Below, piece after piece: positions 13,241-19,953 of a DNA stretch of 64,000 nt. The notes beneath the pieces were generated by a model. The model was not told the origin of the DNA and did not search any database. It saw only the letters and a list, made by a program, of their open reading frames with translations. The stretch spans positions 248,001 through 312,000 of the forward strand of contig JANQQU010000043.1 in the NCBI GenBank assembly GCA_028284905.1. Reading direction: 5' to 3'. This DNA comes from Calditrichia bacterium (GTDB lineage Bacteria; Calditrichota; Calditrichia; RBG-13-44-9; J075). Position 1 is the stretch's first letter; every line of letters begins with the position of its first letter. A program made the position numbers and the translations under genes.

Positions 13241-13528
13241 TCAGTTTGTTAAAGCACGAATAGTTAAGGCTGCTAAAATGCCAAGCACCAGGATCGATGT
13301 GCTGGCGACAACTTTTTTCTGAAGAGATTCTTGCAGATAGTAAACCAATGCAATTCCAGCAAATAAACCAACCGCAAGACCATACATTGCCGTTTCTAAT
13401 ACCTGCAAGCCGGTATCAAGATTTTGTGCCTCCAGCGTCAACCGTTTGATGTAGCCAAAAATAAAGCCGCCGATTATCGCGCTGTTAAAAACCAGAATAA
13501 TCCGGGAAAAAACATTTAGCAAATTCAT
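13241..13528 (-). CDS. small membrane protein, unknown function
   Basis: 95 aa with three predicted membrane segments: IILVFNSAIIGGFIFGYI, AMYGLAVGLFAGIALVYYL and STSILVLGILAALTIRAL. GGAG precedes the start, and the ATG overlaps the stop of the upstream amidohydrolase gene by 4 bp, so it is the last gene of that operon. I do not recognise a family. Confidence 0.65.
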   Translation of the reverse strand: MNLLNVFSRIILVFNSAIIGGFIFGYIKRLTLEAQNLDTGLQVLETAMYGLAVGLFAGIALVYYLQESLQKKVVASTSILVLGILAALTIRALTN

Positions 13529-14856
13529 TCGCTCTCCTGCTGTGGGATGTTTTTCTGTCGATACTTTTCCTGGTACTTTTCATATAGATCAGTGTGCCTG
13601 CTGCTAACATCAATTTTTCTTCCCTGAATATAAACAGATTCAATTTGCGTCATAATCTCCAGGGGGTCCCCATTGGTAACTATCAAGGTGGCGTCTTTGC
13701 CGCTCTCCAGCGATCCGACCCGCTCAGCAGCGCCGATGATTTCTGCCGGATATAGTGTGACTGCTTTTAATGCTTCCATCGCGGGGAGACCATGTGCTGC
13801 AGCGGTGGCCGCATGGTATGGAAGGTTGCGGGTGTGGGCTGTCGAAAACGCGAAACCGCTGCCACCGATGCAGAATTTAACACCTGCGTCGTGAAGTTTT
13901 TTCGGGAGACTAAAAGGTGTGTTATAAGCTTCCCAACGGCGTCGGGGTAATTTGTGTGTGCCGGTAATAATCACCGGAATATCATACGTTTTCAGGAGAT
14001 CAGTAACCCTCCAGGCATCATATCCACCAACAAGAATCATCTTCAGCTTTTCAGCCGCTGCCCAGGAGACCGCAGCTTGTATTTGTCTGATTGAGTTGGC
14101 GTGAACAAATACCGGGATTTTTCCTTCGACAACCGGTATCATGGCTTCCCAGCGAGCGCTGCTTTCGTGGGTGCTTTGCTCGGATGCATTCTTTGCTGCC
14201 GCTGCATAAGCCCGGGCTTGGGCAAATGTGGTTTTTATCTTCTCAATGTTTTTCAAATATCGCGGTGTCTCTTTTGAGGGTTTTTTAGGAGGCACCATCG
14301 AGGGCCAGCGTACGTGGAGTCCCGCAGGTGTTTTTAAAGCCATTTCTTCCCAGGTCCAACCGTCGAGCATCATCAGGGCGGAAGTGCCGGAAATGAGTCC
14401 GCCGGTAGGCACACTCATAGCTAAAGCAATGCCATTGGCGCGGGTAACCGGTAACAACTCACTATCCGGATTGAAAGCTGTGCCGGCATGTGCTTCCGGG
14501 GTGATATCGCCGGTTTCACTATAATCCCGCGTTGCCCGGACAGAAGCAACCTCGACAAGCCCAAGTACTGTGTTTGCATCAATTAAAGAGGGATAGACCC
14601 GTTTGCCGGAAATATCTATTACTTCGGTGCCTTCCGGTAAATCAACTGTTGTACCAATAGCGGTTATTTTTCCATCCTCAAAAAGAATCGTGCCGTTTTC
14701 GATGGTTTCTCCGCTAACGGTGTAGATCGTTCCGCCAGTCAGAGCAATGGGGTGATCCTGCGGCGGTGCCGGAACCTGGTTGGAGGCCTGGAGCGAAAAT
14801 GCTATCAATACCCAATAAATGGCCAAAAATTGTAAAATATATGTTCGCTTGTTCAT
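13525..14856 (-). CDS. secreted amidohydrolase-like protein with degenerate metal site
   Basis: 443 aa with a signal peptide (ILQFLAIYWVLIAFSLQAS). The overall order of segments matches the imidazolonepropionase-like amidohydrolases: an N-terminal beta sandwich (TGGTIYTVSGETIENG), a barrel, and the tail ESGKDATLIVTNGDPLEI. The metal-binding HxH that normally follows GLID is replaced (YPSLIDANTVLG), and the late Asp segment reads CIGGSG. One His remains in VFVHANSI. The protein therefore probably binds no metal or only one, and may be a non-catalytic partner of the 1019-aa neighbour encoded 46 bp upstream. It also resembles the N-terminal half of that neighbour (GTSALMML, GKIPVFV). AAGGA precedes the ATG. 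Confidence 0.82.
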   Translation of the reverse strand: MNKRTYILQFLAIYWVLIAFSLQASNQVPAPPQDHPIALTGGTIYTVSGETIENGTILFEDGKITAIGTTVDLPEGTEVIDISGKRVYPSLIDANTVLGLVEVASVRATRDYSETGDITPEAHAGTAFNPDSELLPVTRANGIALAMSVPTGGLISGTSALMMLDGWTWEEMALKTPAGLHVRWPSMVPPKKPSKETPRYLKNIEKIKTTFAQARAYAAAAKNASEQSTHESSARWEAMIPVVEGKIPVFVHANSIRQIQAAVSWAAAEKLKMILVGGYDAWRVTDLLKTYDIPVIITGTHKLPRRRWEAYNTPFSLPKKLHDAGVKFCIGGSGFAFSTAHTRNLPYHAATAAAHGLPAMEALKAVTLYPAEIIGAAERVGSLESGKDATLIVTNGDPLEIMTQIESVYIQGRKIDVSSRHTDLYEKYQEKYRQKNIPQQESE

Positions 14857-14902
14857 CGCTGTTCCTTTTAATATTTATTTTGCGTCTACAGTTGATGTCC
14901 GC

Positions 14903-17900
14903 TTATTCATCATCATCATGCCAGTGATGACTATGGTGTATTTTAGCTCTCTTTGCGGGCATCTTACCTTTGCCGCCACTAGTTGCTGTCTTGCGGTATT
15001 TTTCGATAATTCGCGCCCGTTCTGCGATGACAGCTGCCTGCATTTCCCGGTCATCAGCGATGTCAAAGTATTTCCGTCCTTCTATCCAGGTTTGCTCGCA
15101 ACTGCTGTATGTAGAGAGGGGGGGGCCATTCCAGATCGCAAAATCAGCATCTTTGCCAACTTCAAGAGAGCCGGTGTGTTGATCGATTCCTAATTGCTGG
15201 GCAGGATTAATTGTAACGAACTTTAGCGCGTCCGCTGGGCTAACACCGCCATACTTTACTGCTTTAGCTGCTTCCGTATTCATCCGTCGGGAGAGTTCAT
15301 TACTATCCGAGTTAAAGGAAACATTTACCCCGGCGTGATGCATTAAAGCACCATTGTGCGGAATCGCATCAAAAACTTCGAATTTGTAGGCCCACCAGTC
15401 GGAGAATGTCGAGGCGCCAAAATTGTGCGTTGCCAGTTCATCTGCGACTTTATAGCCTTCGAGAACATGCTGGAATGTTGCTATGCGAAAGCCAAATTCT
15501 TCCGCAACCCGAACCAGCATCAATATTTCATCCTGGCGATATGAGTGGCAATGGATGAACCGTTCCCCATTAAGGATTTCCAGCAAAGCCTCCAGTTCAA
15601 GGTCGCGCCGGGGAGGGATGACGCCGCGTTTCTTCTTTTGGCTACTGAATTTTGTCCAGTGATCCTGGTATTCCCGTGCAGCCTTAAAACGGTCGCGAAT
15701 GATTTGTTGTACACCCATTCTAGTTTGCGGATAGCGGGTGGTAAAATTGTCGCCCCAGTTGCTTTGTTTAACGTTCTCGCCCAGGGCAAACTTAATGCCT
15801 TCGGGAGCCTCCTTCAGTAAAAGGCCTTCGGCATCTGCCCCCCAACGAAGCTTTAGCACCGCGTTTTGGCCGCCGATCGGGTTCGCTGAGCCGTGGAGAA
15901 TATTGATGACGGTTAGCCCGCCGGCAAGCTGGCGATACATGGCGATATCGAATTGATCAATCACATCCCGAATTCGCACTTCGGCGGAAACAGCCTGGCC
16001 ACCTTCATTAACAGAGCCATCAACAGCGGCGTGAGAGTGGGCGTCGATTAATCCCGGTGTGATGTGTTTTCCCGCCGCATCAATCACAAGATCATTTTTT
16101 CCGCCGGAAAGGGATTGGCCGACAGCAGCAATTTTCCCCTTAACGATATGGATATCCGCATTTTCTAAAGTGCCCTGCGGCCCGGACGTCCAAATTGTTG
16201 CATTCTTAACTAAAACGCCGGCCGGCTGCTCCGGTGTCCCTCGCTGAAAATATGCACCGATGCCCATGTAGTTGCCGGGCGTTTTATCGACTTTCTCTTC
16301 TTCCGAATGCTCCTCTTTCTCTGCAGCTTCCGGTGCAGCTTCCCAGGTCGCGGTCCAGGTAAATGTTTGACCATCAGGAAGATCGCCGATGCCGGTCATC
16401 TTTCCGTCAATAACTGTTGCCGAGAGCCCAACCGTGCCCGGATGGCCGAGGGAATCGCCACTGGTGCTGAAGCGGATTTGATTAAGCGTGTTTGAAAAAT
16501 TCTTTAATGGAATTTCAAGGCTGTCCCGAACAATCTTTCCCTTGGTCTTAGCTGCTTTGCCACTAAATGATAGTGCCAGGGAGTGAGATGCGTTTGGGAA
16601 ATTCAAGCTCGCCTGCCATTTGCCGCTAACATCCAAGGCAGTTTGATCTTTGATTTGGAAGCGTTCACCATCTACCCAGACATCAAGAATTTCCCGGCCT
16701 TTTTCGAAAAGACCCTTATCAGAAACAAGTAAGTGTGCCCGTTTGCCAACAGCGATGCTGCCGAGAATATTGTCGACGCCAAGCATTTTTGCCGGCGTTG
16801 TTGTCAGGGCTGCCAGGGCATCTTTTTCGGTAAGTCCTGCCGTTTTCGCCCGTGGGAGTTCTTTCGCAAAATCCGGCTTGGTGAGAGCAAAAGGTACCCC
16901 TGCAGCTGCTATCTTTGCCGGGTTGGTCGGTGCCTGCTCCCAATGCTGAAGTTGCAGCAGGGAAAGATCCAGTGAAGATTCCGGGGTATCCAATGCCAGC
17001 TTATCCGGAAAATCTGTGGGCAAAATAAGGGTGTTTAGCTGAGGGTGGGGGAGCGCAGCTATATGAAAGTATTCCCGTCCACTGCCTTTGACATTGATTG
17101 AAAGATTAAACTCCCGGGCAATAGTTAGCGCCCGCAGGAGATTGTTCTCGGTGGCTACTTCAAAAATAACCGGTATTTTGTTGTTGATGACACCCTGCAA
17201 AGCAAGCAAGGCTTCATCTGCTGCCGGTGCCGGTTGCGTGGGGTTCTGCCGATAAGCAGCCTGGGCAGACTGATACCATTGCGCATCCAATAGAATCTGC
17301 CGTATCAAAGCGATGCTGCCCATTAACGAATTCGGATAACCACTCTGGCTGATGCCTTTTCTAAAGGAGATATGCTGAGCAGCTTCCGGATTTATAATTT
17401 GTGCTTTACCGATAGTTTTACCGAGGCTGACCAGGGCACTACTGCCACGGAAAATTCCTTGACGGGGTACGACCAGGGCACTGGTGTAACCTTTGGCGCG
17501 TAAAGCGCTGATATCTTTCTCTTTCGGCTGAAAATTTTCCAGGACATTCCGAGCAGCTAATACGAAAGGATTCCAGTGGGCGAGCGTATGCTCCGGCCCT
17601 TTCTCGGCCTTCGGATCGGGTTTGGCAATGCCTAAATGACTATAGCTTTCGATCAGCCCCGGATAAATTGTTCTCCCACTGTAGTCCCAAACGCGGGCAT
17701 CTGCAGGAATCTCGATTTTTTCGCCGACAGCTTTAATGATGCCAGCTTTTAGTAGAATAACCCCTTTAGGGATCTCCTTGCCCGGTGCGGTTACAATTCT
17801 TGCATTAGTCAATGCATGATAGGTCGGCGCATTGTCCCGCAACCCGGTTGTTGGCGTCGTGGTCTGAGCTGATATGCTTAAGCTGCTACCCAGAAGCAGG

Positions 17901-17962
17901 CAGAGCAGAAGCAGGGCGCTCAGTTGTCTGTTCGTTTTACACCTTAAAAATAAAGTAATCAT
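14903..17962 (-). CDS. secreted double-domain amidohydrolase
   Basis: 1019 aa with a signal peptide (LSALLLLCLLLGSSLSISAQ). Two amidohydrolase modules are fused. The first (about residues 45-450) is degenerate: GLIESYSHLGIAKP replaces the GLIDxHxH site. A beta-rich insert (about 450-550) and an acidic Glu/Lys linker follow. The second module (about 580-990) looks catalytic: TPGLIDAHSHAAVDG, then HCHSYRQDEI, a further His in QHVLEGYKV, and the Asp in NSDSNELSRRM, ending with GSLEVGKDADFAIW. The C-terminus is His-rich (KIHHSHHWHDDDE), possibly a metal-collecting tail. First gene of a three-gene operon. Hydrolysis of a cyclic amide or a dipeptide in the periplasm is likely; the substrate is unknown. 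Confidence 0.87.
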   Translation of the reverse strand: MITLFLRCKTNRQLSALLLLCLLLGSSLSISAQTTTPTTGLRDNAPTYHALTNARIVTAPGKEIPKGVILLKAGIIKAVGEKIEIPADARVWDYSGRTIYPGLIESYSHLGIAKPDPKAEKGPEHTLAHWNPFVLAARNVLENFQPKEKDISALRAKGYTSALVVPRQGIFRGSSALVSLGKTIGKAQIINPEAAQHISFRKGISQSGYPNSLMGSIALIRQILLDAQWYQSAQAAYRQNPTQPAPAADEALLALQGVINNKIPVIFEVATENNLLRALTIAREFNLSINVKGSGREYFHIAALPHPQLNTLILPTDFPDKLALDTPESSLDLSLLQLQHWEQAPTNPAKIAAAGVPFALTKPDFAKELPRAKTAGLTEKDALAALTTTPAKMLGVDNILGSIAVGKRAHLLVSDKGLFEKGREILDVWVDGERFQIKDQTALDVSGKWQASLNFPNASHSLALSFSGKAAKTKGKIVRDSLEIPLKNFSNTLNQIRFSTSGDSLGHPGTVGLSATVIDGKMTGIGDLPDGQTFTWTATWEAAPEAAEKEEHSEEEKVDKTPGNYMGIGAYFQRGTPEQPAGVLVKNATIWTSGPQGTLENADIHIVKGKIAAVGQSLSGGKNDLVIDAAGKHITPGLIDAHSHAAVDGSVNEGGQAVSAEVRIRDVIDQFDIAMYRQLAGGLTVINILHGSANPIGGQNAVLKLRWGADAEGLLLKEAPEGIKFALGENVKQSNWGDNFTTRYPQTRMGVQQIIRDRFKAAREYQDHWTKFSSQKKKRGVIPPRRDLELEALLEILNGERFIHCHSYRQDEILMLVRVAEEFGFRIATFQHVLEGYKVADELATHNFGASTFSDWWAYKFEVFDAIPHNGALMHHAGVNVSFNSDSNELSRRMNTEAAKAVKYGGVSPADALKFVTINPAQQLGIDQHTGSLEVGKDADFAIWNGPPLSTYSSCEQTWIEGRKYFDIADDREMQAAVIAERARIIEKYRKTATSGGKGKMPAKRAKIHHSHHWHDDDE

Positions 17963-18042: not shown

Positions 18043-18648
18043 TTAGGCTTCCTGCCAATTGTCCGGATGAATTTCCCAGGGTTTCACATCCGGTTCGTGA
18101 TCGACAGATAGCGCATCTGCAATGCGATTGATGTAATTGAAGTAACTGATTACCTGGGTTGCGTCGTGAATCGCAACATCATCCAGGCCAAGGTTGCGCA
18201 AGTGAACGATGTCAGCCTCCGCCATTTCTCTCGGTCGCAATGTTAATTTTTCTGCATACTCACAAAGGGCAATGTCAATATTGGATAATCCGGCTTTTCG
18301 CCAATCGACGGTAATATGATGCACAAATAAATCCGCAGTCCGCTCATCAGTAATGCCAAAATCTTTAACCTCTTCACGGAGGTCATGCGCATGCGCCCGC
18401 CGTCAATAGTGACAATGATTTGCGGAGGACACAACGACCGCGAGCATCTCTCGTTGGCCGCGGCTCAAAGGGGAACGGCCCATCATGATGGCGCCGTAAA
18501 AATCCATTGAAAATTTTAGGGTGCGGGGATTTTGCCCCATGATGCTGACAATGTTCCATATTTTGCCAGCGCGCTTAATTGCGGCATCATACTGTTTTCT
18601 GAGGAAGCCACTGGTTTCTTCAATAGAATAAACTTTAATCCAGGCCAT
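18043..18648 (-). CDS. AhpD-like peroxidase-related protein, probable selenoprotein (in-frame TGA at residue 82)
   Basis: One frame of 201 codons from ATG 18648 (GAGGA six bases before) to TAA at 18043, interrupted only by TGA at 18403-18405. The segment reads NHCHY-TGA-RRAHAHDL, so TGA occupies the second position of the CxxC active site, giving CxxU. The AhpD proton relay Glu-Cys-His keeps its exact spacing: Glu15 residues before the TGA (in REML) and His4 after it. The 119 codons after TGA are intact and match the family to its normal C-terminus; the length fits the uncharacterised peroxidase-related enzymes (about 180-200 aa). A hairpin of bacterial SECIS type begins 17 bases after the TGA. 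AhpD-like CxxU selenoproteins are an established family. The alternative is a recent nonsense mutation. No selA, selB, selC or selD is in the window. Confidence 0.78.
18366..18385 (-). promoter_or_regulatory. SECIS-like hairpin downstream of the in-frame TGA
   Basis: On the mRNA, UGACCUC pairs with GAGGUUA (7 bp, one G-U) around the six-base loop CGUGAA. The loop has G in its second position, followed by U, and this G lies 25 nt after the UGA. Bacterial SECIS elements are small hairpins inside the coding region with G in the first or second loop position, 16-37 nt after UGA; this element fits. Confidence 0.6.
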
Positions 18649-18838
18649 AACTTTCCTCACGATAATTTGCCAAAATGATGAACTAGTGAAGATGGATTGC
18701 AGAAAGATCACATCGAAAGGTGCACCTGCAAAACAGTGGAAAGTTTAACTTTTTTGGAGGACTTATCAAAACGGAATTGGCAGCTAAAATAACTTCGTGA
18801 GAAAGAAAATAAATGTGAGGAGGGAATGATATCAGTTC

Positions 18839-18879: not shown

Positions 18880-19953
18880 TTAATTGTCTGTAAATCCACT
18901 GGCGTAAGTAATAACACACATGGTTTGATAAATGGGATGAGAGCTGATGGAGGCACCTGCTACCCGGAATTCTTTACTAAAAATATTATCCCGATGGCCT
19001 CTTCCGGGAACGCCGTCATCAATGATTAATTTCATGACGAACATGCGGGCGCTGTTGTCGCCATAGGCAATATTCTCTCCCGATAGGCCTTCCCAAATAC
19101 CATAGCGTTCCATTCTTTCGTAGGGCTTGCTGCCATCACCACCAATATGCCCGGTTTTTCCACTGCGGCTTTGGTCGCGCACGTGATCGCGGGCAGCGAG
19201 TGACATGCCAATCGACATGCGCATCGCAGGAAGAGAGGCTATTCTTTTTAGGTAGCTGATTGCTTCATCCAACGCTTTTACGCCTTCATGGGTTCGTTCC
19301 GGCGTTTCCCCGGGAATGCGGAGGAGGTCGCCATGGTAATACGGGCGGAGTTTTTCCAAATGGCGGGCATAAGCGGAAGGGTTTTGCCGGGCAAGGTTCA
19401 TCTCCCGAATCACTTCCATTTCCATTTGCGATAATTTATGGCGGGATGTTTTTCCTACTGCCCGTTGCCGCGAGTGATGGACCGGCTTAAGTGATGGCTG
19501 GCCGGGCTGGCGAAGAAGGTTCTCTTTGTAAGTATTCAGATCTTTGCTGTCAGGAAATTTGTTGAGGCCTTCTGTGCAATATCGTAATGCGGTTTTTTTG
19601 TCGTTGTAGCGGTCATAGGCAATTTGTGCCAGGGTGTAGAAGGAACGATAAGTGGCATTGCCGGTTTTTAAAGCTTGTTTACAATAATGCCGGGCTTCAT
19701 TATACTTTTGCTGTTTTTTGTAAACGATAGCAACCGCTTCCAGCGCGTTAACAGTACCGGAAAGGTTTTTGGTTTGTTTACAATGAATTAATACCTCTTT
19801 ATACAAGCGTAATGCCTGGGTATAATTCTGTTGCTGCAGTGCGATGTTCGCTTTCTGCCATTTCTTCTGTGGTGTGAGTCTTACCGGTCCATTTGCATAA
19901 ATTCCGGAAAACAAAAAAAGTTGTATAAGCGTTACAAGTATGATGCGAGTCAT
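18880..19953 (-). CDS. secreted TPR and CAP-domain protein
   Basis: 357 aa with an N-terminal signal peptide (ILVTLIQLFLFSGIYA). Residues about 30-150 hold three or four tetratricopeptide units (ALQQQNYTQALRLYKEVL, VYKKQQKYNEARHYCKQAL, a third near AYDRYNDKKTALRYC). After a basic linker, residues about 175-355 form a CAP/SCP domain: AARDHVRDQSRSGKTGHIGG, the SGENIAYG segment and RGHRDNIFSKEFRVAG, which carry the conserved His/Glu cavity residues. CAP proteins in bacteria are secreted and of mostly unknown role. It is transcribed divergently from an L,D-transpeptidase gene 285 bp away. Confidence 0.85.
   Translation of the reverse strand: MTRIILVTLIQLFLFSGIYANGPVRLTPQKKWQKANIALQQQNYTQALRLYKEVLIHCKQTKNLSGTVNALEAVAIVYKKQQKYNEARHYCKQALKTGNATYRSFYTLAQIAYDRYNDKKTALRYCTEGLNKFPDSKDLNTYKENLLRQPGQPSLKPVHHSRQRAVGKTSRHKLSQMEMEVIREMNLARQNPSAYARHLEKLRPYYHGDLLRIPGETPERTHEGVKALDEAISYLKRIASLPAMRMSIGMSLAARDHVRDQSRSGKTGHIGGDGSKPYERMERYGIWEGLSGENIAYGDNSARMFVMKLIIDDGVPGRGHRDNIFSKEFRVAGASISSHPIYQTMCVITYASGFTDN

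Follow-up and report, generated by a model that had tools for sequence, protein, structure and literature searches.

An AhpD-like gene with an in-frame UGA very probably encodes an intact CxxU selenoprotein in a Calditrichia bacterium

The window, the whole 64,000-nucleotide stretch of Calditrichia DNA that was analyzed, contains a gene of the peroxidase-related AhpD-like family whose frame is seemingly broken by a stop codon at the second redox-active position. The gene is almost certainly intact, and with a probability of roughly 95% it encodes a 201-residue AhpD-like redox protein carrying a CxxU motif, in which UGA is decoded as selenocysteine (Sec) by way of SelB and a downstream hairpin and which uses the relay chemistry of AhpD. 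Standard gene callers split or truncate such a gene, so that the protein is easily overlooked or labeled a pseudogene in the genomes that carry it. The features of the locus are as follows.

18043..18648, minus strand: AhpD-like (peroxidase-related, TIGR01926) probable selenoprotein gene, 201 codons plus TAA, translated with TGA as U
18403..18405, minus strand: in-frame TGA, predicted Sec82, the second redox residue of CxxU; TGA in 29 of 29 clade genes, the window gene included
18412..18414, minus strand: Cys79, the partner cysteine of CxxU, invariant in 29 of 29 clade genes and in the wider alignment
18649..18662, minus strand: Shine-Dalgarno-like stretch GTGAGGAAAGTT, directly 5' of the ATG, read from the sequence
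18366..18385, minus strand: putative bacterial SECIS (bSECIS) hairpin, from the RNAalifold consensus, frozen stem codons, pair counts, and synonymous-codon randomization
18880..19953, minus strand: upstream neighbor, a protein with TPR and CAP-like domains (domains assigned by eye)

The gene is encoded on the minus strand, which the original prediction had left unstated, and runs from an ATG at 18648-18646, just 3' of the Shine-Dalgarno-like AGGAAAG, through the TGA at 18405-18403 to a TAA at 18045-18043. Translation with TGA as U gives 201 residues with a single U at position 82, in the context SSANHC79HYU82RRAH86; relative to Sec82, Glu67 stands at -15, Cys79 at -3, Tyr81 at -1, and His86 at +4, and all 119 codons 3' of the TGA are open. 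Under Table 11, the same gene is rendered as two open reading frames (18711..18403 and 18324..18043). The TIGR01926 model matches the full-length product across the TGA, over residues 3 to 187 (135.5 bits against a cutoff of 81.8), and the Pfam CMD domain is also matched (37.6 bits against a cutoff of 23). These results agree with the original prediction, which had described one gene interrupted by a single TGA at the second cysteine of a CxxC site, with Glu at -15, His at +4, and 119 intact codons downstream, and had expected gene finders to split or shorten it.

The AlphaFold model, built from window and locus proteins, is an all-helical AhpD-like prediction with a mean pLDDT of 94 and a pTM of 0.89, and its best match in the PDB is 6k40 (TM scores of 0.80 and 0.86). 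The solved relatives of the product (6k40, 3c1l, 2oyo, 2pfx, and 2prr) are the same proteins that appear as the top PDB matches of the model. These Cys-type peroxidase-related proteins share the fold (TM scores of 0.77 to 0.81, normalized to query length over about 182 to 193 columns) and have the Glu, the CxxC, and the His in place, but they carry Cys where the window protein would have Sec and are 24 to 35% identical to it. The relay residues Glu, Cys, Cys/Sec, and His are spaced in Mycobacterium tuberculosis AhpD and Pseudomonas aeruginosa PA0269 as they are in the window protein. PA0269 also has a Tyr at -1, corresponding to Tyr81, whereas M. tuberculosis AhpD has His132 at that position and carries its motif at the C-terminal end of the chain. 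NF041238 (AhpD_rel_CFYUT, alkylhydroperoxidase-related [seleno]protein) is also a CxxU relative of AhpD; however, the window gene is not a member, since its weak match of 53.7 bits falls far below the equivalog cutoff of 175 and the model is 357 positions long.

The catalytic chemistry of the window protein can be proposed by analogy with its family, for which the relay spacing and chemistry have been described (PMC3141380). SelB carrying Sec-tRNA would read UGA82 as Sec under the direction of the hairpin just 3' of it, and translation would run past the UGA to the TAA. Sec82, at the place of the mycobacterial catalytic Cys133, would give up its proton to the AhpD relay formed by Glu67 and His86 and would attack a peroxide or disulfide substrate; Cys79 and a cellular thiol as electron donor may then return it to its starting state. 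The protein could act in this way as a peroxidase or as an adaptor, and the many AhpC/TSA-type proteins found in the genome could be its partners.

The UGA might instead serve as a regulated stop, so that the 81-residue N-terminal product would be a real protein and the full-length form would be made only with sufficient selenium. Termination generally competes with the insertion of Sec during Sec decoding, as described for a mammalian system (PMC9599142), which lends this reading some weight. However, the 81-residue piece ends before His86 and is without most of the helices of the AlphaFold model, and there is no sign of selection on it as a product in its own right, making such a role for the UGA improbable.

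The genome (8.55 Mb in 93 contigs, with a completeness of 100) contains the genes for Sec decoding. The selA gene (479 bits) is cut by an assembly break, with contigs C28 and C46 both ending inside it and overlapping there by the same 99 bases, and selB (332.7 bits, on C46) lies directly downstream of selA across this break. Contig C9 carries one strong tRNA-Sec (73 bits), which ARAGORN reports as tRNA-SeC with the anticodon TCA, and C21 carries selD (388.6 bits), which has its own in-frame TGA at the canonical site (TCAGUASKIGPGD). The original prediction had held that the absence of all such genes would refute it; selA, selB, tRNA-Sec, and the TGA-bearing selD are all present. Within the window's phylum, selA or tRNA-Sec occurs in 7/7 genomes that have a TGA-form homolog versus 3/7 of those with Cys forms only (P = 0.035), and SelA was found in 6/7 and 19/20 further clade carriers versus 13/20 noncarriers among those listed (P = 0.02).

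Just 3' of the UGA, a bSECIS-like hairpin is predicted whose small apical loop contains a G. It consists of a 7-bp stem, pairing bases 21 to 27 with bases 34 to 40 (numbered from the T of the TGA), and a 6-nt apical loop, CGUGAA in the window gene. The stem is the only consensus helix returned by RNAalifold. Covariation by itself is weak, with most stem pairs invariant, and codon freezing was chosen as the main test of the hairpin because nine sequences provide too little variation. In columns with an invariant amino acid among the first nine sequences, 3/4 stem codons are monomorphic versus 1/71 codons elsewhere (P = 2e-4). Across the 29 sequences, Leu90 is always CTC and Glu93 is always GAG (29/29 each), whereas the commonest codon at other conserved leucines accounts for merely 31 to 46%. 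Pair counts identified compensatory double changes at two stem pairs, including a change of C24-G37 to U-A in loci L082 and L083, where GAC to GAT (Asp) accompanies GTC to ATC, while 6/28 sequences lack the closing pair, 21-40. Randomization of synonymous codons gives weaker hairpins for the clade as a group, with a pooled P value that is optimistic owing to the kinship of the sequences; the window gene by itself is borderline (P = 0.07), and the Cys homologs have no excess hairpin stability under the same procedure. A plain shuffled-fold z-score over the 54 nt from the UGA onward reached no significance gene by gene, and an Rfam search of the locus returned no meaningful family. The hairpin was assessed by published general features, without a trained bSECIS model, and these features match the bacterial SECIS elements described in PMC1088965. 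Locked in this manner, the putative hairpin offers a clean example of a bSECIS outside model bacteria.

UGA could also be read through as a residue other than Sec, whether as Trp by a near-cognate tRNA, as Cys by mischarging of the Sec-tRNA, or through a general recoding of UGA. Some other organisms are reported to insert Cys at Sec codons, and Sec and Cys are indistinguishable at this codon from DNA. Against this, the genome has a dedicated tRNA-Sec together with selA, selB, and selD, a conserved hairpin lies 3' of the UGA, and the TGA falls exactly at the redox-active position, where distant homologs have Cys; general recoding was rejected, and read-through as another residue ranks as still less probable than a regulated stop.

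Among the 29 clade genes read codon by codon (the window gene and 28 relatives), TGA stands at exactly the Sec82 codon in every one, and the proton relay of Glu (-15), Cys (-3), Cys/Sec (0), and His (+4), as well as the Tyr at -1, is kept in 29/29. The close relatives, all with TGA, are 54 to 70% identical and come from G034 (another genus of the same family), Chloroflexota, and Gemmatimonadota, and the first nine clade members form one clade in the tree with support of 100/100. Cys takes the place of Sec82 in more distant homologs, both from the window's own phylum and from Alphaproteobacteria, and plasmid records contain only distant relatives, with less than 60% identity. Homology is kept on both sides of the TGA in relatives, and comparisons of the window gene with its relatives give a pN of 0.23 to 0.33 (about 0.24 in summary) and a pS of 0.79 to 0.89 (about 0.82) after the TGA, near the values before it; by these measures, the region 3' of the TGA is protein under purifying selection and no relic. 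A lone in-frame stop is the expected outcome of a single base change in a pseudogene, or of an error in place of TGC or TGT, with the protein being lost or a normal CxxC enzyme, but the possibility is negligible given the same TGA in 28 other genes from three phyla, the selection on the part after the TGA, and the presence of Sec decoding genes: TGA in all 28 close relatives examined (28/28) excludes sequencing error in practice, and conservation refutes the pseudogene reading. Together with the decoding genes and the predicted hairpin, the UGA shared with 28 relatives supports the original prediction of a probable CxxU selenoprotein.

Knowledge of AhpD-like CxxU selenoproteins goes back to 2005, when 27 Sargasso Sea sequences were described under the name "AhpD-like protein" (PMC1088965); they appear again in the GOS survey (PMC2398784), and a 2026 compilation of selenoprotein families in prokaryotes includes TIGR01926 with CxxU, represented by MCB9421940.1 (PMC13188914, Table 1). 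The original prediction had likewise treated the family as already recognized, in agreement with PMC1088965 and PMC13188914. The published family shares with the window gene the family model, Sec at the second position, and, immediately following the UGA, a hairpin whose small apical loop contains a G. The subclade of the window gene, named here for its HAHDLR motif, differs in an insertion of about 10 residues after HAHDLR and a WE-type C terminus, and no Cys form of it was found. Surveys identified the clade in 61 of 395 Gemmatimonadota genomes (62 copies, 62/62 with an in-frame TGA and two of them with two TGAs) and in 6 of 400 Chloroflexota genomes (6/6 with one in-frame TGA); the 68 matches were scored for an in-frame TGA, codon-by-codon reading being limited to copies with a fetched locus. 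No Cys copy of the clade was found at E <= 1e-45 in these 395 Gemmatimonadota and 400 Chloroflexota genomes. An apparently Cys-free subclade with a locked hairpin is possibly a modest new element, and it may overlap the published set. The stronger statement, that the HAHDLR clade is Sec-obligate across at least three phyla, without any Cys form and with its coding sequence tied to a single SECIS hairpin, is offered tentatively and at somewhat less than even odds. If true, it would suggest a chemistry in which Cys cannot replace Sec, unlike the wider AhpD family with its Sec and Cys forms. A clade that looks free of Cys is well suited to the question of why Sec persists where Cys usually suffices.

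The genome of the window probably has a sizeable selenoproteome, since four genes of the AhpC/TSA-thioredoxin type contain an in-frame TGA (L087, G000:C83:6784-7170; L091, G000:C1:134748-135116; G000:C19:177431; and G000:C26:3508), two of which were read as UxxC (ASWUPFC and RGFMUAFC). There is also a second AhpD-like gene in this genome (L055:1492-2037; G000:C69:160592-161128, minus strand), 41% identical to the window gene, in which TGA likewise replaces the second Cys codon (NKCHYUMAHHG). No further candidate stood out when the window was scanned for TGA sites resembling Sec codons beyond its long open frames. In other genomes, an AhpD homolog at L058 (G014:C145:15430-15966) has TGA at the Sec position in a GAPU rather than a CxxU motif, without the partner cysteine, and a more distant AhpD-like TGA gene at L060 (G034:C64:223465-223797) reads CPYU. 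When a single hairpin register is imposed on the seven paralog-type TGA genes, only 88% of cells fit and no double change is seen, so a single conserved helix is not claimed for that group.

The neighborhood of the window gene gave no functional clue. The same pair of a TPR/CAP-like gene and an AhpD-like gene with TGA occurs in G034 (L042), where the neighbor protein is 54% identical to that of the window, and among the loci examined this neighbor is common to G034 only. Directly downstream of the AhpD-like gene are two tandem amidohydrolase-like genes (window positions 13525-17962, minus strand), encoding proteins of 1019 and 443 amino acids whose family was assigned by eye.
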